Shown here: one piece after another, positions 12,711-24,850 of the stretch
How the letters are laid out: each line of letters begins with the position of its first letter
Numbering within the stretch: the stretch's first letter is position 1
From: Chloracidobacterium sp. N
GTDB taxonomy: Bacteria > Acidobacteriota > Blastocatellia > Chloracidobacteriales > Chloracidobacteriaceae
Length of the DNA stretch: 64,000 nucleotides
Assembly: GCF_018304765.1 (NCBI RefSeq)
Contig: NZ_CP072643.1
Span: 186,001-250,000, forward strand
Reading direction: 5' to 3'
Translations under genes and position numbers: made by a program
The notes under the pieces: model-generated
Database searches by the model: none
The model's input: only the letters and a program-made list of their open reading frames with translations
What the model was told of the DNA's origin: nothing

Positions 12711-15700
12711 ATGGGAATTTACCACCCGACGAATCCCGGCGAGACGCCGCCCAAATCCAACCCGTCGCGCTACACCGTTGTCGCCGCCAAGCAGAGTGAC
12801 AACCGCTGCCGTGAAGCGCACGACAACCCCTACCGGCTGCGGCCGGATGTCGTCTTCATCTCCGCCTCTGATACCGAGCTGACCGTACTGGAAGCCGCCC
12901 GGGCCCAACTGCCGGATGGCTTCCCACCGCTGCACATGCACCCCAGCTACGCCCTGCAAACACCGGCCGAAGTGGCGGCGTTTCTGTCCGACATCGCTCC
13001 CACCGCCCGCCTGGTGATTGTCCGCATTCTGGGCGGACGGGCGTATTTTCAGGAAGGACTGGAACAGTTGCGCACCCTGCACCGCCGAACGGGCGTGGCA
13101 CTGCTGGCGCTGCCGGGGGATGACCGGCCTGATGCTGACCTGGCCGACTACACGACGGTTGCGCCGGAGGTAGCCGCGAGATTCTTTGCCTACTGCGTCG
13201 CTGGCGGCAGCGCCAACTATGCCCAAGGGCTGCGGTACTTGTCCGATCAGGTGCTGGGCACCACCTTTGACGCCGCGCCGCCGGCCGCCATGCCGCTGTG
13301 TGGGTTGTACCACCCCGCCGCGGCCGACCTGGAAGTGACCGCGACACTGGACATCGAAACCTTCGGCCGCCACCACTGGCGCGACCCAACCGCACCGCTG
13401 GTGGGCGTGCTGTTTTACCGGGCCTACTGGCAGAGCCGCGATCTGGCCGTTGTGGATGCCCTGATCCGCGCGCTCGAAGCCACTTCCTGCCGGGTGCTGC
13501 CGGTATTCTGCTACAGCCTGCGGGAGCTGGCGCCGGAAACACTGGCGGCTTACTTCGGGCAACCCGGCGAAGCCCGCGTCGAAGTCATCGTGAGTCTGGT
13601 CAGCTACGCCCTGGCTGAAATCGGACATGGGCCGCGCGGCCCACAAGCTGCCGGAGCCACCCTGGAAGCCCTGGTCAATCTGGGGATTCCTGTCATTCAG
13701 GGGCTGACGGTGCGTGACACGCTGGACGCCTGGGAAGCCAATCCGGCCGGATTGTCACCGCTCGATGCCGCCATGAAAGTCGTCATGGCGGAGTTCGACG
13801 GACGGATTATCTCGACCGTGGTCGGCGTTCAGGAGCCAGCACCTTCCGGGGCCAGCCGCCAGAAATCCATTCCGGGGCAGGTGGAGCGGCTGGCTGCCTT
13901 CGCTGCCCGGTGGGCGCGGCTGCGTCGCCTGCCCAACCACACGAAGCGGCTGGCGATTGTGCTGACGAACTTTGCCAACCGCAACGGACGGGTCGGCAGC
14001 GCCGTCGGGTTGGACACACCGGCTTCCGTCCTCAACCTTCTGCGGGCGCTGCGCGCACGGGGCTACCACGTCGGCGAACTGCCGCCGGACGGCGACACCC
14101 TTATGGCGGAACTGCTGGCCCGGGGCGGATACGAAGCACCCGTGCTTTCCGCAGAACAGAAAGCGTCGGCAGCACACTACCGCACGGTGGACTACCAGGC
14201 GTGGTTTGCAACCCTGCCGGCCGTGTGCCAGGCGGAACTCCGGGCAACCTGGGGCGAGCCGCCGGGCCGCGTCATGGTGGAAGGCGATGTGGGCTACATT
14301 GCCGGACGGCGCTACGGAAACGTTCTGGTGCTCATTCAGCCGCCGCGTGGGTACGGGGAAAACCCACGGGCGATCTACCACAGCGGGGAACTCGTCCCGC
14401 CGCACCATTATCTGGCGGTCTATCACTGGCTGCGGTCCGTGTTTGGCGTGGACGCCATCATTCACTGCGGCAAACACGGTACGGTGGAATGGCTGCCGGG
14501 CAAGTCGCTGGGGCTGTCCGACCGGTGCTACCCCCAACTCGTCCTGCCGGATACGCCGGTGCTGTATCCCTTTCTGATTGGCGATCCGGGTGAGGGGCTA
14601 CAGGCCAAACGGCGGTGGCAGTCCGTTCTGGTCAGCCACCTGCCGCCGCCCATGACGCAGGCCGAAGCCGACCAGGAAGGTGAACTGGCTCCACTCCAGG
14701 GGCTTCTGGCGGAACTGGCACGTGCCGACCAACTCGACCCTGACAAACGAAGCCTCATTGTGGATGCTATCTGGGAAGCCGTCGTAGCGGCCAACCTGCA
14801 CCACGACCTGGGCTACACCGCCCGGCCGGACGAAGACGCCCTGCCGGCGTTCCTGAAAAAACTAGATGGCTATCTCTGTGACTTGGGGGAAATCCAGATT
14901 CGCCACGGGCTGCACATTCTGGGTGAAGCGCCCGCCGGTGAACGGCTGGTGGACTTTCTCTGTGCGCTGGCGCGGCAGGGCGGGCCGTCATGTCCGGGGC
15001 TGCCGGCGGCACTGGCGCGCGACCTCAACCTGCCGGCCGACCTCCTGACCCTTCCGGCCGAAACGCCGTGGTCCCCGGCGGCGACACCACCCTCCCTGGC
15101 GGTGCTCAGTGACACTCCCATCACCACGGTCGGAAGGTTGCGGCGGGCCATAGACGCCGCCCTGCGGAACCTGGTCTGGCAGTTGGCCGAGCGGAATTTT
15201 GTGCCGGCCGCCGTGACCGAACTGACCGGAGAGAAACCGGAGACGCAACGCACACTGACGTATCTGGTGGAAGACATCCTGCCCCGGATACGGCAGGCGC
15301 CGGAGGAAATCCGCAACCTGCTGGATGCCCTCGAAGGGAAGTCCATTCCACCGGGTCCCAGCGGCGCGCCAACCCGTGGCCGGGTGGACGTGCTGCCCAC
15401 CGGGCGGAACTTTTATGCCGTGGACATCCGCGCCGTTCCTTCCCGTTTTGCCTGGCAGGTGGGACGACAACTGGGGGACGCACTGCTGACGACATACGTC
15501 CGGCAGCAGGGACGTTTTCCCGAAGTCATCGGCCTGACGCTGTGGGGAACGGCCAACATGCGTACCCAGGGCGATGACCTTGCCCAGGTGCTCTGGCTGC
15601 TTGGCGTCGAGCCGGTATGGAATGTGACCAACCAGCGCCTGGCTGGTCTCCGGCTGCTGCCGGTCGAGCAGTTGCAGCGCCCACGCATTGATGTCGTCAT

Positions 15701-16631
15701 CCGGGTTTCCGGCTTTTTCCGCGATGCCTTTCCCAACCTGCTGGCGTTACTCGATGAAGCCGTCCATCTGGCCGCCGAAGCGGATGAACCGGACGAATGG
15801 AACTACGTCCGCAAGCATGTCCGGGTGGAGGAACAGCAGCGGATTGCCGCCGGTACGCCGCCCGAAGTAGCCCGCCAGCAGGCGCGTTTCCGGGTTTTTT
15901 CCAACCGGCCCGGCGTCTATGGCGTGGGGATCCTGGCCGCCATCGCCGAAGGCGCTTGGACGAGCCGCGAAGACCTGGCGCAGATTTACCTGCGCTGGAG
16001 TGGTTACGCCTACACGGCGGGCGAGTATGGCACACCGGCCGAAACCATCCTGGCGGCGCGACTGGCGGCCTGCGAAGTCGTGGCCCAGAACCAGGACAAC
16101 CGCGAGCATGACATTCTTGACAGCGATGACTACATGCAGTTTCACGGCGGCATGGCGGCCGCCGTCCACAACCTGCGCGGGGAACTGCCGCCGACTTTGC
16201 TGGGCGACTCGTCTGATCCGGCGCGGCCGCAAGTGCGCTCACTTGACGAAGAACTGCGCCGGGTCCTGCGCGCACGGGTGACGAATCCAAAGTGGCTGCG
16301 GGCCATTCAGGAACATGGCTACAAGGGCGCCCTCGAAATGGCCGCCACCGTGGATTACCTGTTTGGGTACAGCGCGCTGACCGGTCTCGTCGCGGACTGG
16401 ATGTATGAGCGGGTTGCCGAGGCGTACCTTTTTGACGAAGCGGCCGCCGCGTTTCTGCGCCGGAGCAATCCCTGGGCACAGCGGGACATCGCTGCGCGGC
16501 TTCTGGAAGCGGCCCGGCGAGGGCTGTGGGCGCAGCCGCCGCCGGCGGTACTACGTCGTCTGACAGCCGTCCAGGCAACGGCTGAAGAAGCCATCCAGCA
16601 GGCGGAGGTGAACTGTGACCGGGAGACATAA
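12711..16631 (+). CDS. cobN: Cobaltochelatase subunit CobN
   Basis: The protein has 1306 residues, in the usual size range for the large ATP-dependent cobaltochelatase subunit that inserts cobalt into hydrogenobyrinate a,c-diamide. Typical CobN blocks are RPDVVFISASDTELTVL near the N-terminus, IQPPRGYGENPRAIYHSGEL and HCGKHGTVEWLPGKSLGLS in the middle, and DNREHDILDSDDYMQFHGGM near the C-terminus. The last block separates CobN from the magnesium chelatase subunit BchH. The only in-frame standard start upstream of the conserved region is ATG at 12711, so the first about 45 residues are a poorly conserved extension that carries the 35-bp repeat. CobS/CobT partners are not in the window. It leads an operon with a binding protein, cobO and cobB. 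Confidence 0.92.
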   Translation: MGIYHPTNPGETPPKSNPSRYTVVAAKQSDNRCREAHDNPYRLRPDVVFISASDTELTVLEAARAQLPDGFPPLHMHPSYALQTPAEVAAFLSDIAPTARLVIVRILGGRAYFQEGLEQLRTLHRRTGVALLALPGDDRPDADLADYTTVAPEVAARFFAYCVAGGSANYAQGLRYLSDQVLGTTFDAAPPAAMPLCGLYHPAAADLEVTATLDIETFGRHHWRDPTAPLVGVLFYRAYWQSRDLAVVDALIRALEATSCRVLPVFCYSLRELAPETLAAYFGQPGEARVEVIVSLVSYALAEIGHGPRGPQAAGATLEALVNLGIPVIQGLTVRDTLDAWEANPAGLSPLDAAMKVVMAEFDGRIISTVVGVQEPAPSGASRQKSIPGQVERLAAFAARWARLRRLPNHTKRLAIVLTNFANRNGRVGSAVGLDTPASVLNLLRALRARGYHVGELPPDGDTLMAELLARGGYEAPVLSAEQKASAAHYRTVDYQAWFATLPAVCQAELRATWGEPPGRVMVEGDVGYIAGRRYGNVLVLIQPPRGYGENPRAIYHSGELVPPHHYLAVYHWLRSVFGVDAIIHCGKHGTVEWLPGKSLGLSDRCYPQLVLPDTPVLYPFLIGDPGEGLQAKRRWQSVLVSHLPPPMTQAEADQEGELAPLQGLLAELARADQLDPDKRSLIVDAIWEAVVAANLHHDLGYTARPDEDALPAFLKKLDGYLCDLGEIQIRHGLHILGEAPAGERLVDFLCALARQGGPSCPGLPAALARDLNLPADLLTLPAETPWSPAATPPSLAVLSDTPITTVGRLRRAIDAALRNLVWQLAERNFVPAAVTELTGEKPETQRTLTYLVEDILPRIRQAPEEIRNLLDALEGKSIPPGPSGAPTRGRVDVLPTGRNFYAVDIRAVPSRFAWQVGRQLGDALLTTYVRQQGRFPEVIGLTLWGTANMRTQGDDLAQVLWLLGVEPVWNVTNQRLAGLRLLPVEQLQRPRIDVVIRVSGFFRDAFPNLLALLDEAVHLAAEADEPDEWNYVRKHVRVEEQQRIAAGTPPEVARQQARFRVFSNRPGVYGVGILAAIAEGAWTSREDLAQIYLRWSGYAYTAGEYGTPAETILAARLAACEVVAQNQDNREHDILDSDDYMQFHGGMAAAVHNLRGELPPTLLGDSSDPARPQVRSLDEELRRVLRARVTNPKWLRAIQEHGYKGALEMAATVDYLFGYSALTGLVADWMYERVAEAYLFDEAAAAFLRRSNPWAQRDIAARLLEAARRGLWAQPPPAVLRRLTAVQATAEEAIQQAEVNCDRET

Positions 16632-17541
16632 CGCGCAAGGGAACTGGTCACGGACGGCCACGGCCGTTGCGGCTGTGACAGCCGTGGTGTGGCCGGGCAG
16701 TGCCTGTCAGTCCTTTCGTGCGCCAGCCGACAACCACCGGCCGGCTGCACACACAACCGCGCCCAAGCCACAACGCATCGCCTCACTTTCGGTTGGTACG
16801 GATGAAATCCTCTGCGCGCTTGTGCCGCCGGAACGGATCGTCGCGCTGTCAAAGTACGCTGCCGACCCCGAAGTGAGTTACGTTGCCGATGTGGCCCGCC
16901 AGATTGGTGTCTTTGTCGAACGGGAGCCGGAGCGGATGCTTTCGCTGCGGGCTGATCTGGTGCTGCTGGCGCGCTACACCAAAGCGGAACTGCGGCAGGC
17001 CGTCGAGCAGACCGGAACGCCAACCGTGGTCGTCGAGGATTTCCGGTCACTGGCTGACATTGAAAACAATCTGCGTCGGATTGGTCAGACGGTGGGTGAA
17101 GTGGAGCGTGCCGAGGCCGTGATTGCCGACATGCGGGCAAAACTGGCTGAGGCGCGGGACGGGCTGCGTCCTGACCGGGCCGGGTGGCGGGCGCTGTACC
17201 TGATGCCGCCGCTGATGGTGGCCGGGTGCGATACCATGGCGGATGTGAAACTGACCGCGGCCGGTCTGCGCAATGCCGCTGCGGACCTGACCGGCCACGT
17301 GGCGCTTTCGGCCGAGGCCTTGCTGGCGCGTGACCCGGACGTCATCTTTGTGGCGACGGGACTGGCGGCCGACCGTGGCTTCCGGGAACAATTGCTGGCC
17401 GACAAGCGGTTGGCCAGCCTGAGTGCCATTCGGAAACGGCGCGTCGTGGCGCTGCCGTCACGGTCGCTGCGGACGGTATCGCACCACATTGCCGACGCCG
17501 TGGGTGATATTGTTCGTGCTGTCAATGCCCTGCCGCAGTGA
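16615..17541 (+). CDS. BtuF-like cobalamin/metal-chelate ABC binding protein
   Basis: The protein has 308 residues. GTG at 16615 follows GGAGGTG directly and overlaps the cobN stop by 17 bases. The N-terminus is a signal peptide with a possible lipoprotein cysteine (WPGSAC). The periplasmic-binding fold of the BtuF/FhuD type is shown by PQRIASLSVGTDEILCALV, ADLVLLARYTKAELRQAVEQ and LLARDPDVIFVATG. Its position between cobN and cobO argues for cobalamin or a corrinoid precursor as ligand. The permease and ATPase are not here. Confidence 0.82.
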   Translation: MTGRHNAQGNWSRTATAVAAVTAVVWPGSACQSFRAPADNHRPAAHTTAPKPQRIASLSVGTDEILCALVPPERIVALSKYAADPEVSYVADVARQIGVFVEREPERMLSLRADLVLLARYTKAELRQAVEQTGTPTVVVEDFRSLADIENNLRRIGQTVGEVERAEAVIADMRAKLAEARDGLRPDRAGWRALYLMPPLMVAGCDTMADVKLTAAGLRNAAADLTGHVALSAEALLARDPDVIFVATGLAADRGFREQLLADKRLASLSAIRKRRVVALPSRSLRTVSHHIADAVGDIVRAVNALPQ

Positions 17542-17579
17542 GTGCCGTGGCAAAGACCCAGTGGGAAAGGAAAGGACAC

Positions 17580-18209
17580 ATGATGGCGGAGGACATAACG
17601 CAACCGTCTGAAGGCGATGAAGCACAGCACCGGGCGCAGATGGCGCGCAAAAAGGCCCTCCAGGACGCGCGCATCGCGCAGGCTACCCAGGAAAAAGGGC
17701 TGATCATCGTCCACACGGGCCCCGGAAAGGGAAAAACCACGGCGGCGTTGGGGATGGTGTTTCGGGCACTGGGGCACGGGATGCGGATTGGCATCGTCCA
17801 GTTTACGAAGGGGGCGTGGGAGAGCGGGGAAGCTGCCTTTGCCCGGGAACTCGCCGGCCGGGTGGATTTCTTTGCACTGGGCGAAGGTTTCACCTGGGAA
17901 ACCCAGGATCGGGAACGCGACCGCGCCGCGGCTGAACGTGCCTGGGCCAAAGCCTGCGCCCTGATGGAAGACCCGCACTACGATCTGGTGGTGCTCGATG
18001 AACTCAACATTGTCCTGCGCGATGACACGCTGCCTCTGGAACCGGTCATGGAAAAGCTGCGGCAGAAACGTCCGGCGCTCCACGTCGTCATCACCGGGCG
18101 CAGCGCCCGCCCGGAGCTGGTCGAGCTGGCCGATCTCGTCACCGAAATGAAGCTTGTCAAACATCCGTTCCGCAGCGGCATCAAGGCGCAGCGGGGCATT
18201 GAATTCTAG
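17580..18209 (+). CDS. cobO: Cob(I)yrinic acid a,c-diamide adenosyltransferase
   Basis: The CobA/CobO family is shown by the P-loop HTGPGKGKTTAALG, then IGIVQFTKGAW, YDLVVLDELNIVL and HVVITGRSARPELVELADLVTEM. The enzyme transfers the 5'-deoxyadenosyl group of ATP to the reduced corrinoid cobalt. ATG codons at 17580 and 17583 follow a GGAAAGGAAAGGAC purine tract; the longer frame from 17538 overlaps the upstream gene and is less likely. The gene gives about 209 residues, normal for the family. It is the third gene of the cobalamin operon. Confidence 0.92.
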   Translation: MMAEDITQPSEGDEAQHRAQMARKKALQDARIAQATQEKGLIIVHTGPGKGKTTAALGMVFRALGHGMRIGIVQFTKGAWESGEAAFARELAGRVDFFALGEGFTWETQDRERDRAAAERAWAKACALMEDPHYDLVVLDELNIVLRDDTLPLEPVMEKLRQKRPALHVVITGRSARPELVELADLVTEMKLVKHPFRSGIKAQRGIEF

Positions 18210-18225: not shown

Positions 18226-19308
18226 ATGATTTCTCTGGAAAGCCCATCTGCAACCCTCTCCACTCTGGCTCCGCGTGCCGTGGGCGCATCGCCATGCCAA
18301 CTGTGCGGCAACCCTGAAAGCGTTGTCCTGGCTAACCGCGGCCGCCATGGGAAACCTCTCCGAACGGTGATCTGCCTTCAGTGCGGGCTGGTCTGGTCAG
18401 ACCCGCTTCCCCATAACCCCCGTGAGTTCTACACACAACACTACCGCCTCCACTACAAAGGCACGTACACGCCCAAACCAAAGCATATTCTGCGCGCCGG
18501 CAGGTTGGCACTGGCACGCTGTCAGACCATCCGGCATCTGCTGCCGACCCCACAGACGATCCTGGATGTGGGTTCCGGGGGAGGGGAGTTCATCTATCTG
18601 CTTCACAAACTGGGTCACACCGTGCAGGGCATTGAGCCAAACCGGGGTTATGCGGAATATGCCGAAAGTGAGTATGGGCTTCAGGTCCATATCGGCTTTG
18701 CTCAGGATGTGGCCTTGCCGGAAGAACACTTTGACCTGATCACGATGTGGCACGTCCTGGAGCATACCGAACGACCGGCCGAAGTCCTGTTGAAACTGCA
18801 CCGGCTGCTGAAGCCCAGCGGGATACTGGTTATCGAAGTGCCGAATGTTGAGGCGACCTGCCAGGCGCCCCAAAACACCTTTCACGAAGCCCACATCTTC
18901 AACTTCAACCTCTCAACGCTGCAAAAGCTTGCTGAAAAAACAGGCTTCACCGGGATTGGTCAACTGACCTCCGACGATGGCGGGAACATCACCCTTTTTG
19001 CCCGGAAAAACGCAGAAAAAAACGGCGCTCCGGCGGCGCTTGCGATTCCGGGAAATGCGGAAAGCATCATCCGCATTGTCCGGGGACACACGCCGTTGAA
19101 GCATTACACAACCGCACATCCCTATCGCCGGTTGTGGCATCGCCTCCGGCAGTATTTTGCCGGGCAGTACGGGACACGCGATTTCACCAGCGGCAAGGCC
19201 CTGCTTGACCAGCTTTATGCGCCCACCATCCGCCGGCACGTACACCACGGCACACCTCATCAGGAACCAGCATGTCAAACCCCGCCGATGACCCGGTTCA
19301 GGAACTAG
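18226..19308 (+). CDS. SAM-dependent methyltransferase with N-terminal zinc ribbon
   Basis: The protein has 360 residues. A CxxC...CxxC zinc-ribbon-like start (CQLCGNPE...CLQCGLVW) precedes a class I methyltransferase core: ILDVGSGGGEFIYLL (motif I), IEPNRGYAEYAE, FDLITMWHVLEHTERPAEVL and LKPSGILVIEVPN. This matches the methyltransferase_23 type often found in glycan or natural-product clusters. The substrate is unknown. It follows cobO by 17 bases, so it shares the operon, although it is not a known corrin methyltransferase. Its end overlaps the next gene by 37 bases. Confidence 0.82.
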   Translation: MISLESPSATLSTLAPRAVGASPCQLCGNPESVVLANRGRHGKPLRTVICLQCGLVWSDPLPHNPREFYTQHYRLHYKGTYTPKPKHILRAGRLALARCQTIRHLLPTPQTILDVGSGGGEFIYLLHKLGHTVQGIEPNRGYAEYAESEYGLQVHIGFAQDVALPEEHFDLITMWHVLEHTERPAEVLLKLHRLLKPSGILVIEVPNVEATCQAPQNTFHEAHIFNFNLSTLQKLAEKTGFTGIGQLTSDDGGNITLFARKNAEKNGAPAALAIPGNAESIIRIVRGHTPLKHYTTAHPYRRLWHRLRQYFAGQYGTRDFTSGKALLDQLYAPTIRRHVHHGTPHQEPACQTPPMTRFRN

Positions 19309-19709
19309 GTCACAGCCTACATGAGACACCACATCAGCCGGCAGGTCTGACAACTCCGTCGAACCGGCCGTCGGGGCGTCTCCTGTTTCTCAACGCCAGC
19401 ATTCTCACCGCCTATGGTGTTTATCGCTACGAGCCGGTGACACCGGAAGCGGCACGGCAGCTCATTGCCCGGTTTCGCCAGGCGAGACGGACGCTCTACT
19501 CGGCAGTCGGGCATCGCGCCACAGCAGCCTTGATGACCCGGCTGCTGGGCATTGAAGTGCCGTTCAACCGGGTCACGGTTGAGCATCTGGCAGGCGAGTC
19601 GGCGATTGTGCTACGCCTCAATCAGCGCCCGCCGGAAGGACTGGTGCTTTCCATTGCCGACATCGAAGCCATCGGCTATGAACTCGGTCTGGTGACCCGT
19701 CTTGAATAA
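19272..19709 (+). CDS. DUF1874 protein, AcrIII-1/Crn2-type ring nuclease homologue
   Basis: The protein has 145 residues, with a 35-residue disordered N-terminal extension followed by a DUF1874 core. It begins RLLFLNASILTAYG and continues SAVGHRATAALMTRLLG, VPFNRV and LRLNQRPPEGLVLS. DUF1874 includes the STIV B116 protein, the viral anti-CRISPR AcrIII-1 and the cellular ring nuclease Crn2, which cleave cyclic tetra-adenylate made by type III CRISPR systems. The expected catalytic histidine corresponds to H81 in GHRATAA, and R119/E122 in QRPPEG match the conserved Arg/Glu pair. No CRISPR array or cas gene is in the window. Its place between a methyltransferase and cobB is unexpected. Confidence 0.75.
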   Translation: MSNPADDPVQELGHSLHETPHQPAGLTTPSNRPSGRLLFLNASILTAYGVYRYEPVTPEAARQLIARFRQARRTLYSAVGHRATAALMTRLLGIEVPFNRVTVEHLAGESAIVLRLNQRPPEGLVLSIADIEAIGYELGLVTRLE

Positions 19710-19715
19710 CGTGCC

Positions 19716-21128
19716 GTGAACCCTCCCAGAATCATCATTGCCGCGCCGGCCAGCGGTCACGGCAAAAGCACTGTCGCCACGGGACTTATGGCCGCGCTGG
19801 CAGCAGACCGGCGCGTACAGGGGTTCAAAGTCGGCCCCGACTATATTGACCCGATGTACCACACGGCGGCCACGGGGCGGCCCTCACGCAACCTCGACGC
19901 CTGGATGCTGCCGCCGGCTGCGGTGCAACTGGTGTTTGCGCGGGTGGCTGCCACGGCCGACGTGAGCATCATCGAGGGCGTCATGGGCTTTTTTGACGGC
20001 GCCGGCAGCGATCCGCTCGCTGGCAGTACAGCGCAGATGGCGCTGTTGTTGGCGGCTCCGGTCATTCTGGTCGTGGATTGCAGCCACATGTCGGTCAGTG
20101 CGGCGGCGGTTGTCCACGGCTTTCACACGTTTATGCCAAAGGTCAATATCGCTGGCGTCATCTGCAACCGGGTTGGCGGGGAGCGCCATGCCGCATGGCT
20201 GCGGGAGGCCATCACGCAGTACGGCGTTCCAGTACTTGGCTGTCTTCCGTACCTGCCCGACCTTACCATACCGGAGCGGCATCTTGGGCTGTTGACCGTG
20301 GAGGAACGGCCGCAGGCCGTACAGACCTTCCTGGCCCGGGCACGGGAAGCGATGGCACGTGATGTTGATCTGGAGGCGGTCGTGGCGTTGGCTGAAGCCG
20401 CGCCGCCGCTACCGCTGCCGGACAGCGCCGGCCCACTGGCTGCGGCCCTGGCCGCGGCTTCGGATGGCGTGGTTCGGATAGGTGTCGCCCGTGACGAGGC
20501 GTTTTGTTTCTACTACGCGGACAATCTGGACGCGCTGCGGGTCGCGGGTGCGGAGGTCGTGTGGTTCAGTCCGTTGCGCGATGCCGTTCTGCCGCCCGGT
20601 ATCAGCGGGCTGTATTTCGGCGGTGGCTATCCTGAAATTTATGCCGCCGCCCTCAGTGCCAACCGTCCGTTGCTGGCGGCCGTTCGGGAAGCCCACGCCC
20701 AGGAGATGCCGATCTACGCCGAGTGTGGCGGGTTGATGTATCTGACCGAGGCGTTGGAAGATGCCGAAGGGCAGCGCCATCCGATGGTTGGCCTTGTTCC
20801 CGGTGTCTGCCGGATGGAGCGCCGGCTGGTCATGGGCTACCGGGAAGTCAGGCTGGCTGCCGACGGACTTCTGGGCGCGGCCGGACAACGGCTGCGGGGG
20901 CACGAGTTTCACTACTCGACGTGGCAGCGCCCGGAAGGAGCGCCGCCGGCCTACGTCATTGAGCCGCGTCATCCGGCAGAACAACCACGCGCCGAAGGGT
21001 TTGCCAGCGGCTACCTGCATGCCAGCTACATTCACCTGCATTTCGGGCAGGATGCGCGGCTGGCCGCACAGATGGTGGCCCGTTGCCGCCTGTGGCAGGA
21101 AAGCCGGGGGCGGGCGCAGCGTTCATGA
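19716..21128 (+). CDS. cobB: Cobyrinic acid a,c-diamide synthase (CobB/CbiA)
   Basis: The protein has 470 residues. The N-terminal dethiobiotin-synthetase-like domain has the P-loop APASGHGKSTVATGLM and KVGPDYIDPMYH, and VSIIEGVMGFFDG follows. The C-terminal glutamine amidotransferase-like domain carries the nucleophile cysteine in YAECGGLMYLTE and the HASYIHLHF region. The enzyme amidates the a and c carboxylates using glutamine and ATP. GTG at 19716 is used as start, 7 bases after the previous stop. It is the last gene of the operon. Whether the substrate is cobyrinate or hydrogenobyrinate cannot be read directly; the presence of cobN favours the aerobic-type (hydrogenobyrinate) route. Confidence 0.92.
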   Translation: MNPPRIIIAAPASGHGKSTVATGLMAALAADRRVQGFKVGPDYIDPMYHTAATGRPSRNLDAWMLPPAAVQLVFARVAATADVSIIEGVMGFFDGAGSDPLAGSTAQMALLLAAPVILVVDCSHMSVSAAAVVHGFHTFMPKVNIAGVICNRVGGERHAAWLREAITQYGVPVLGCLPYLPDLTIPERHLGLLTVEERPQAVQTFLARAREAMARDVDLEAVVALAEAAPPLPLPDSAGPLAAALAAASDGVVRIGVARDEAFCFYYADNLDALRVAGAEVVWFSPLRDAVLPPGISGLYFGGGYPEIYAAALSANRPLLAAVREAHAQEMPIYAECGGLMYLTEALEDAEGQRHPMVGLVPGVCRMERRLVMGYREVRLAADGLLGAAGQRLRGHEFHYSTWQRPEGAPPAYVIEPRHPAEQPRAEGFASGYLHASYIHLHFGQDARLAAQMVARCRLWQESRGRAQRS

Positions 21129-24119: not shown

Positions 24120-24440
24120 TCACTTTCCACCCTGTACTACAACCTTATCCCGCTCGATGATCTCCCGGAAGGCCTGGCTGGTGGTGGCCCAGTCCACCAC
24201 ATCCACCTTCCATGGCAGGTCAGATTCCGAAAAGTCATCCCGCAAAGCAGCCCTGACATCCAGCGGTAATGCCCGGTCACTGATGATCACCAGATCGAGA
24301 TCGGAATGCGGTTTGGCTGTCCGCTTCGCACGAGAGCCAAAAGCCCACACTTCATACCCGGGCACATGCTTCTGCAGGATACGTCGCACCATAGCCCAGT
24401 GTCCCGGGTGAATATCTATCGGGGGGCAATCCGTACTCAT
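24120..24440 (-). CDS. MNT-type nucleotidyltransferase
   Basis: The protein has 106 residues. The nucleotidyltransferase motif is WAFGSRAKRTAKPHSDLDLVI, that is GS, ten residues, then DxD. This is the minimal nucleotidyltransferase fold used by MNT/HEPT toxin-antitoxin modules, where it usually acts as the antitoxin that modifies its partner. It overlaps the stop of the upstream gene by 4 bases, so the pair is co-translated. The target of modification is inferred from the family. Confidence 0.85.
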   Translation of the reverse strand: MSTDCPPIDIHPGHWAMVRRILQKHVPGYEVWAFGSRAKRTAKPHSDLDLVIISDRALPLDVRAALRDDFSESDLPWKVDVVDWATTSQAFREIIERDKVVVQGGK

Positions 24441-24850
24441 GTGAGCCTTGCCTTCAGTGCGTCGCGCAGATGGCGGGCTTCTTCCAGAAAAGCAGGAATC
24501 CCGGCCACGACTTCGAGCGCAACGCCTTCGTCACAGGTATGACTGGTTTTGCTGCGCATTTCACGGTAGCGCCGCCAGGTCGGCCAATCACCGAGCAGAA
24601 GCCCCTGCTCATTACCGGAACGAATCAGGTCCTGAAAGGACATCTGGTCGTATTGGGCTGGACTTGGGGAAACGAACTCAAGAAAACGCTTCAGGGTCTT
24701 GTGGGCCAGTTCATAGGTGAATTCAAAGCGTTGGATCGCACCGTCGCGCAACAGCGTCCGTGTCGGGTCAGCCTGATATTCTGAGATACCCTCTTCAAGA
24801 CGGGCAATCGCATTCTCGAAGGGACGAATGTCCAACCAGTCTGTGGTCAT
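24437..24850 (-). CDS. HI0074-type nucleotidyltransferase substrate-binding protein (HEPT-like)
   Basis: The protein has 137 residues. FENAIARLEEGISEYQ, RFEFTYELAHKTLKRFLEF, FQDLIRSGNEQGLL and WRRYREMRSKTSH match the HI0074/TIGR01987 family, the helical partner of minimal nucleotidyltransferases and a relative of HEPT toxins. It is the first gene of the pair with 24120-24440. A decayed copy of its start and upstream region lies downstream at 23757-24118. Confidence 0.85.
   Translation of the reverse strand: MTTDWLDIRPFENAIARLEEGISEYQADPTRTLLRDGAIQRFEFTYELAHKTLKRFLEFVSPSPAQYDQMSFQDLIRSGNEQGLLLGDWPTWRRYREMRSKTSHTCDEGVALEVVAGIPAFLEEARHLRDALKARLT

Follow-up and report, generated by a model that had tools for sequence, protein, structure and literature searches.

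Gene organization at the locus

The window analysed here, a stretch of 64,000 nucleotides, belongs to contig C2 of the genome of Chloracidobacterium sp. N (G000), a heat-loving, photosynthetic bacterium whose genome has two contigs and 3,715,176 bases in total. Within the window, the genes from cobN through cobB lie on a single strand, either overlapping or separated by gaps of at most 16 bases, and a DUF1874 gene is found among them (Table 1), its frame being intact from ATG to stop according to the open reading frame list and the translation. In a previous sequence-only reading, this gene had been placed between a methyltransferase gene and cobB, and the coordinates agree: since the methyltransferase frame ends at 19308, both genes overlap by 37 bases, while cobB starts (19716) 6 bases past the DUF1874 gene. 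The whole set may be co-transcribed. No cobalamin riboswitch was detected over the operon at the Rfam gathering threshold (five sources), and therefore any coupling with cobalamin would need a promoter or a regulator. Likewise, a simple scan of the window gave no array-like repeats, as had been stated of CRISPR in the earlier reading.

Table 1. Features of the cobalamin operon and of the DUF1874 gene, in window positions
Feature	Position	Strand	Basis or remark
cobN-like gene (CobN/Mg chelatase), first operon gene	12711..16631	+	ORF list, family match
Periplasmic binding protein, BtuF-like	16615..17541	+	Peripla_BP_2 match
cobO/btuR, corrinoid adenosyltransferase	17538..18209	+	Profile matches
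SAM methyltransferase gene	18226..19308	+	Profile match; seen here in G000 and G005 alone
DUF1874 gene, putative Crn2-type ring nuclease	19272..19709	+	145 aa, core residues ~36-145; H81, R119, E122
N-terminal extension, ~35 residues	19272..19376	+	Low-confidence in model; genus comparison
cobB/cbiA, cobyrinate a,c-diamide synthase	19716..21128	+	Profile match

The earlier reading had also drawn attention to an extension of 35 residues, absent from the viral forms. A stretch of about this length does precede the core, with no other in-frame ATG, GTG or TTG between its start and the core (codons read by eye), but it is not a novelty at the family level, its full form being present in only two of the five carriers of the genus, G000 and its close relative G005, where a single non-synonymous change separates the two sets of 35 codons. 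In the AlphaFold2 model the block means of pLDDT over residues 1-30 are 48-56.

Two other observations were made on the surroundings. The methyltransferase genes of G000 and G005 differ by two changes in 360 codons, far below the neighbouring genes, and this gene has possibly been exchanged recently. Furthermore, a gene pair coding for a nucleotidyltransferase and a substrate-binding protein (HEPN/MNT-like) lies on the minus strand at 24120-24850 of the window.

Protein family, fold and active site

The completeness of the DUF1874 core, claimed in the sequence-only reading, was borne out by the HMM search, in which PF08960 (DUF1874, STIV_B116-like) matched residues 38-138 with an E-value of 1.2e-24 (86.8 bits, the curated cut-off being 26) and positions 2-101 of the 101 in the profile. 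With E-values up to 1, PF08960 was the only Pfam family obtained and NCBIfam gave nothing, no cobalamin enzyme family being matched; a PHROG family of unassigned function, phrog_5063, was also recovered (E 5.2e-18). The nearest solved relatives by sequence are AFV3-109 (2j6b, 9.2e-14) and STIV B116 (2j85, 7.8e-7), while a profile built from ten relatives picks up Csx1-Crn2 (8y6z, 8y7f, 8y7g) and AcrIII-1 (6scf, 2x4i). The 'Csx16' model of PADLOC, PDLC01147, matches the window protein as well (6.1e-25). The Csx16 family proper is the Cas_VVA1548 family, and since the PADLOC model matches DUF1874 proteins strongly, its label may mislead or cover DUF1874.

The AlphaFold2 model has a mean pLDDT of 80.0, with ten-residue blocks of 85-94 from residue 51 onward. 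When compared with solved structures, it gave Z-scores of 16.0 with 2j6b, 13.8 with 8y7g (Csx1-Crn2 with cyclic tetra-adenylate, cA4) and 13.3 with 6scf (AcrIII-1 with cA4), whereas the matches in the structure library beyond DUF1874 entries reached at most 2.6 and were left aside. In the alignment, H81, the residue that had been proposed as the catalytic histidine, stands opposite H47 of the SIRV1 protein 2x4i and opposite the histidine replaced by alanine in the H495A structure 8y7g. The mutants H47A (PMC7213978) and H495A (PMC7293037) are both described as inactive in the passages of these papers that deal with them. Among 59 aligned proteins, which take in the five cob-operon proteins of the genus, H81 is conserved in 58, R119 in 58 and E122 in 57. 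The window protein thus has the Arg/Glu pair expected from the earlier reading, which hardly varies across the family and is presumably part of the binding site. By inspection, the sole row lacking the catalytic histidine is that of G256, a genome whose frame lacks that segment.

Sequence, fold and catalytic residues therefore agree with SIRV1 gp29 and with the Crn2 structures, in support of the ring nuclease assignment first made from the letters of the sequence, and it is very likely, on the basis of family, modelled fold and active site, that the window protein is a cA4 ring nuclease.

Variants of the family were also noticed. The one at L043:9516-9755, part of a type III-D-like locus, has a DUF1874 frame without the stretch that holds the catalytic histidine, and may be an inactive ring nuclease or a binding protein; at L050:1617-2021, a viral DUF1874 protein carries a Cys-rich, zinc-ribbon-like insert ahead of the catalytic histidine.

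CRISPR systems of the source genome

The search for a type III locus elsewhere in the genome, which had been proposed as a check, revealed Cas10 at two places on C1, the other replicon, in both cases with the GGDD motif, so that the DUF1874 gene, located on C2, is neither in nor beside a type III locus. Locus A (on L010) is of the Cmr type and contains cas10 with GGDD, a cmr3 fragment, a fragment of 267 aa and a CARF7-DUF2103 protein. This locus is broken at L010:12559-14234, where some 3.2 kb are missing in comparison with G005: cmr3 lacks its end, cmr4 and cmr5 are gone, and only the last third is left of the gene for an 813-aa RAMP fusion protein. Both cas10 and the CARF gene are still open frames. 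The nearest relative of the CARF7 effector is the APE2256-family protein of 8phb/8phj, the cA4-activated Cami1. Locus B (L012:10549-19762) is III-D-like, with a Cas10 of 489 aa bearing GGDD, three RAMP proteins (III-D-type Cas5/Cas7) and a CARF_m10-HEPN effector, which contains an RxxxxH-like motif, R-N-D-V-A-H, and for which no solved relative was obtained.

As regards repeat arrays, none with ATTGAAAC-ended repeats was found in the source genome by a pattern search of that repeat type, none by a simple scan of six pieces of it (L010-L012 and L124-L126), and none was seen near locus B. With the Cmr locus broken and no ATTGAAAC-ended array found, locus B is the only one that could signal. A dedicated stand-alone ring nuclease was not matched among the nine cas-locus proteins scanned; a 'CRISPR system ring nuclease' model gave a weak hit to the CARF7 protein of locus A (4.2e-4), and the host may therefore possess a further means of clearance. 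In any case, the genome that carries the DUF1874 gene also has CARF effectors and type III Cas10 proteins with the cyclase motif, the combination expected for action in trans. CBASS was considered as a source of substrate and rejected, no SMODS match having been obtained in the source genome with one CD-NTase model. The earlier suggestion that the protein had been repurposed for another cyclic nucleotide found no positive support, the active-site residues being unchanged and no SMODS/CD-NTase having been found with that model.

Conservation within the genus

DUF1874 is carried by five of the seven genomes of the genus, and Cas10, searched for with TIGR02577, is present in the same five. In every carrier the gene follows cobO on the same strand, immediately in G002, G003 and G006 and with the methyltransferase gene intervening in G000 and G005; the cobO of G005 is masked in the open reading frame list by a longer opposite frame, its place thus resting on the near-identical layout. 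Directly 3' of DUF1874 comes cobB in four of the carriers, the distance being about 2.6 kb greater in G006, and cobB was not found, in a search with no positive control, in the two members of the genus devoid of DUF1874 or in three family genomes from other genera (0/5; G001, G004 and G007-G009). Since Cas10, DUF1874 and apparently cobB co-occur, the genus alone cannot separate a CRISPR link from a cobalamin link.

The distance to the CRISPR machinery varies, the gene and cas10 being on different replicons in G000 and G005, while in G002 and G006 the gene is 22-25 kb from the Cmr locus. Open Cas10 frames with GGDD are kept in the Cmr loci of three of the five carriers (G002, G005 and G006); in G003, cas10 is fragmented and the Cmr locus looks fragmented too. 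Effectors found elsewhere in the genus include two CARF7-DUF2103 proteins (G005), a CARF2-HEPN Csx1 (G006), which hits the Marinitoga Csx1-Crn2 structures in their CARF portion (5e-7), and a CARF1-HEPN Csx1 (G002); on the 8.4-kb contig of G003 no CARF effector was noticed.

The Cmr deletion of G000 and the fragmented cas10 of G003 would be expected if an active ring nuclease were a burden, that is, an anti-CRISPR fixed by chance under which the weakened type III systems then decay. Nevertheless, this is very unlikely, given the open GGDD frames of the other three carriers, the constant place of the gene across carriers, and the fact that relatives carry it inside CRISPR loci (see below), which indicates a host role.

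Co-occurrence beyond the genus

A wider sample goes some way towards telling the two links apart. At the level of the class, DUF1874 was found in 12 of 162 genomes and Cas10 (PF22335) in 38, with both present in 11 of the 12 DUF1874 carriers (Fisher p 3.4e-7 by genome; 7/8 genera against 26/53, p 0.022, kinship being ignored in both). In a sample of the phylum, which overlaps with the class set, the six carriers among 396 genomes all had Cas10, over the cut-off in 82 of the 396 (p 6.8e-5 by genome and 0.010 by genus, kinship again ignored). A pattern scan of genome contigs gave relatives in 5 of 63 stretches, the patterns being narrow and the figure not a census.

As for location, six of the seven carriers outside the genus have DUF1874 in or beside a type III locus. 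In G093, G336, G256, G408 and G499 it shares a contig with Cas10 and is no more than 11 kb away, and in G435 its neighbours are a CARF5 gene and a repeat array, Cas10 being found on different contigs. In the seventh, G417 (86% complete), a stand-alone DUF1874 gene comes directly after an SLFN_AlbA_2 gene (L120:8004-9705) and no Cas10 was found. A contig filed under Parcubacteria (L047) is nearly the same as a Pyrinomonas type III locus (L045), likely through a binning error.

These locations bear on the possibility that the ring nuclease fold was kept while the protein came to serve cobalamin salvage or its regulation, through another nucleotide of that pathway. The place of the gene downstream of cobO in all five carriers speaks for such a role, as do the failure to find cobB in the genomes mentioned above and the fact that the gene is intact even though the Cmr locus is broken in G000 and seemingly fragmented in G003. 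Against it, the relatives outside the genus occupy type III loci and not cob operons, and the protein keeps the positions conserved among phage and Crn2 proteins. We know of no B12 salvage step that calls for a ring nuclease. Moreover, B12 salvage is reported for Chloracidobacterium, being thought common to all strains studied according to the relevant part of PMC8245765, with a further report in PMC12816986. A role of this kind is considered unlikely. C. thermophilum is stated to require B12 (PMC4376005).

Descent and selection

A tree of 59 proteins groups the five genes of the cob operons in one clade (support 99/99), and these may stem from a single acquisition; four type III-linked genes of Blastocatellia and that of G417 make up a separate clade (98/96). 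The two clades do not join, and the type III-linked genes of G499 and G256 fall elsewhere. The tree is compatible with an origin of the cob clade either from a virus or from a CRISPR locus, and gives it no firm place among viral proteins. Regarding selection, dN was 0.14-0.42 with dS saturated in most pairs, giving a rough dN/dS of 0.11-0.26; in the close pair G000-G005 a value of 0.37 was obtained from 8 changes.

DUF1874 is common in viruses, with 60 viral loci in one scan and 42 phage records, and this, together with a tree compatible with a viral origin, would fit an AcrIII-1 brought into the operon by a phage and since then inert or drifting. Such a remnant is, however, highly improbable: the gene has the same operon place in five of the seven genomes of the genus, the clade is strongly supported, dN/dS lies at about 0.1-0.37, and of eight window proteins scanned against PHROG, the methyltransferase alone gave hits, these being to generic methyltransferase families. 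A search with the peptides of the window protein itself recovered no close viral relative. On operon place, clade, dN/dS and PHROG scan, a prophage remnant is ruled out as the likeliest reading, and the prophage left-over offered as one option in the sequence-only reading is disfavoured. Among the three options then put forward, that of a host-controlled ring nuclease is the best supported, given the two GGDD Cas10 proteins and an operon place kept across the genus.

Proposed role

From what has been described, the window gene probably codes for a cellular, Crn2-type ring nuclease, which is carried in a B12-salvage operon and would act in trans as a host off-switch. This reading is favoured by the GGDD Cas10 and CARF effectors of the same cell, by the relatives in type III loci and by the constraint on the sequence. 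Weighing against it are the broken Cmr locus, the failure of the array searches, and the joint occurrence of Cas10 and apparently cobB with DUF1874 in the genus, as well as G417, where DUF1874 was found but Cas10 was not, and a tree in which the cob clade stays apart from the type III-linked clade of Blastocatellia. The type III Cas10 of the cell would make cA4, which a dimer of the DUF1874 protein would bind; with H81 as general acid, the ring would be cut to A2>P, the CARF effectors would be released and the cell could recover. The protein would be made in trans from the B12 salvage operon on the second replicon, and some cA4-clearing capacity would therefore exist whatever the CRISPR loci do.

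Most simply, the operon would give the gene steady expression without recourse to CRISPR promoters; a genuine link to B12 is possible but unsupported. In a more far-reaching version, regarded as doubtful, a viral-type ring nuclease was domesticated into a metabolic operon and cobalamin metabolism sets the type III off-switch. If this were true, cells salvaging B12 would keep cA4 low, while those that do not would be more alarm-prone. To our knowledge, no physiological wiring of the clearance of a CRISPR second messenger to nutrition has been described earlier. The question raised is whether the off-switch is made constantly or according to metabolic state.

Comparison with known systems

Crn2 and its viral twin were already known, the new element being a location away from CRISPR that is kept across a genus. 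A survey from 2025 looked at coding sequences up to 6 kb away from type III loci; its counts were seven loci with Crn2 and 36 phage genomes with AcrIII-1, and the part of it concerned with effector-less loci raises the possible action of ring nucleases in trans (PMC12409355). A Crn2-type gene in a metabolic operon away from CRISPR is outside that 6-kb range. No publication on such a gene, fixed in a metabolic operon, was found in a search made mostly without subscription journals; PMC6591296 names both Chloracidobacterium and DUF1874, in passages irrelevant to this gene. A probable ring nuclease kept across a genus and far from CRISPR loci suggests that surveys of CRISPR neighbourhoods can undercount off-switches, and a type III locus without a ring nuclease of its own need not lack one in the genome.

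When set against the small cA4 ring nucleases Csx16 and Csx20 (PMC12409355), the window protein would be of the same general type, and the PADLOC model that it matches even bears the Csx16 label; nevertheless, the DALI score published for Csx16 and 2J6B is only Z 4.8 in the corresponding part of PMC12409355, whereas the window protein hits PF08960 alone in Pfam. With the viral proteins AcrIII-1 (SIRV1 gp29), AFV3-109, the nearest solved structure, and STIV B116, it shares both family and active site. In contrast to these, the window gene is chromosomal and bears an extra N-terminal stretch, and it is found not in a virus or prophage, as a viral anti-CRISPR gene would be, but in an operon kept within the genus. 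On the host side, a close counterpart is the Csx1-Crn2 of Marinitoga, which has the same DUF1874 fold, catalytic histidine and Arg/Glu pair and is also host-encoded in a genome with Cas10 and CARF effectors; the window protein differs in being stand-alone and in being encoded in a cob operon instead of at a CRISPR locus.
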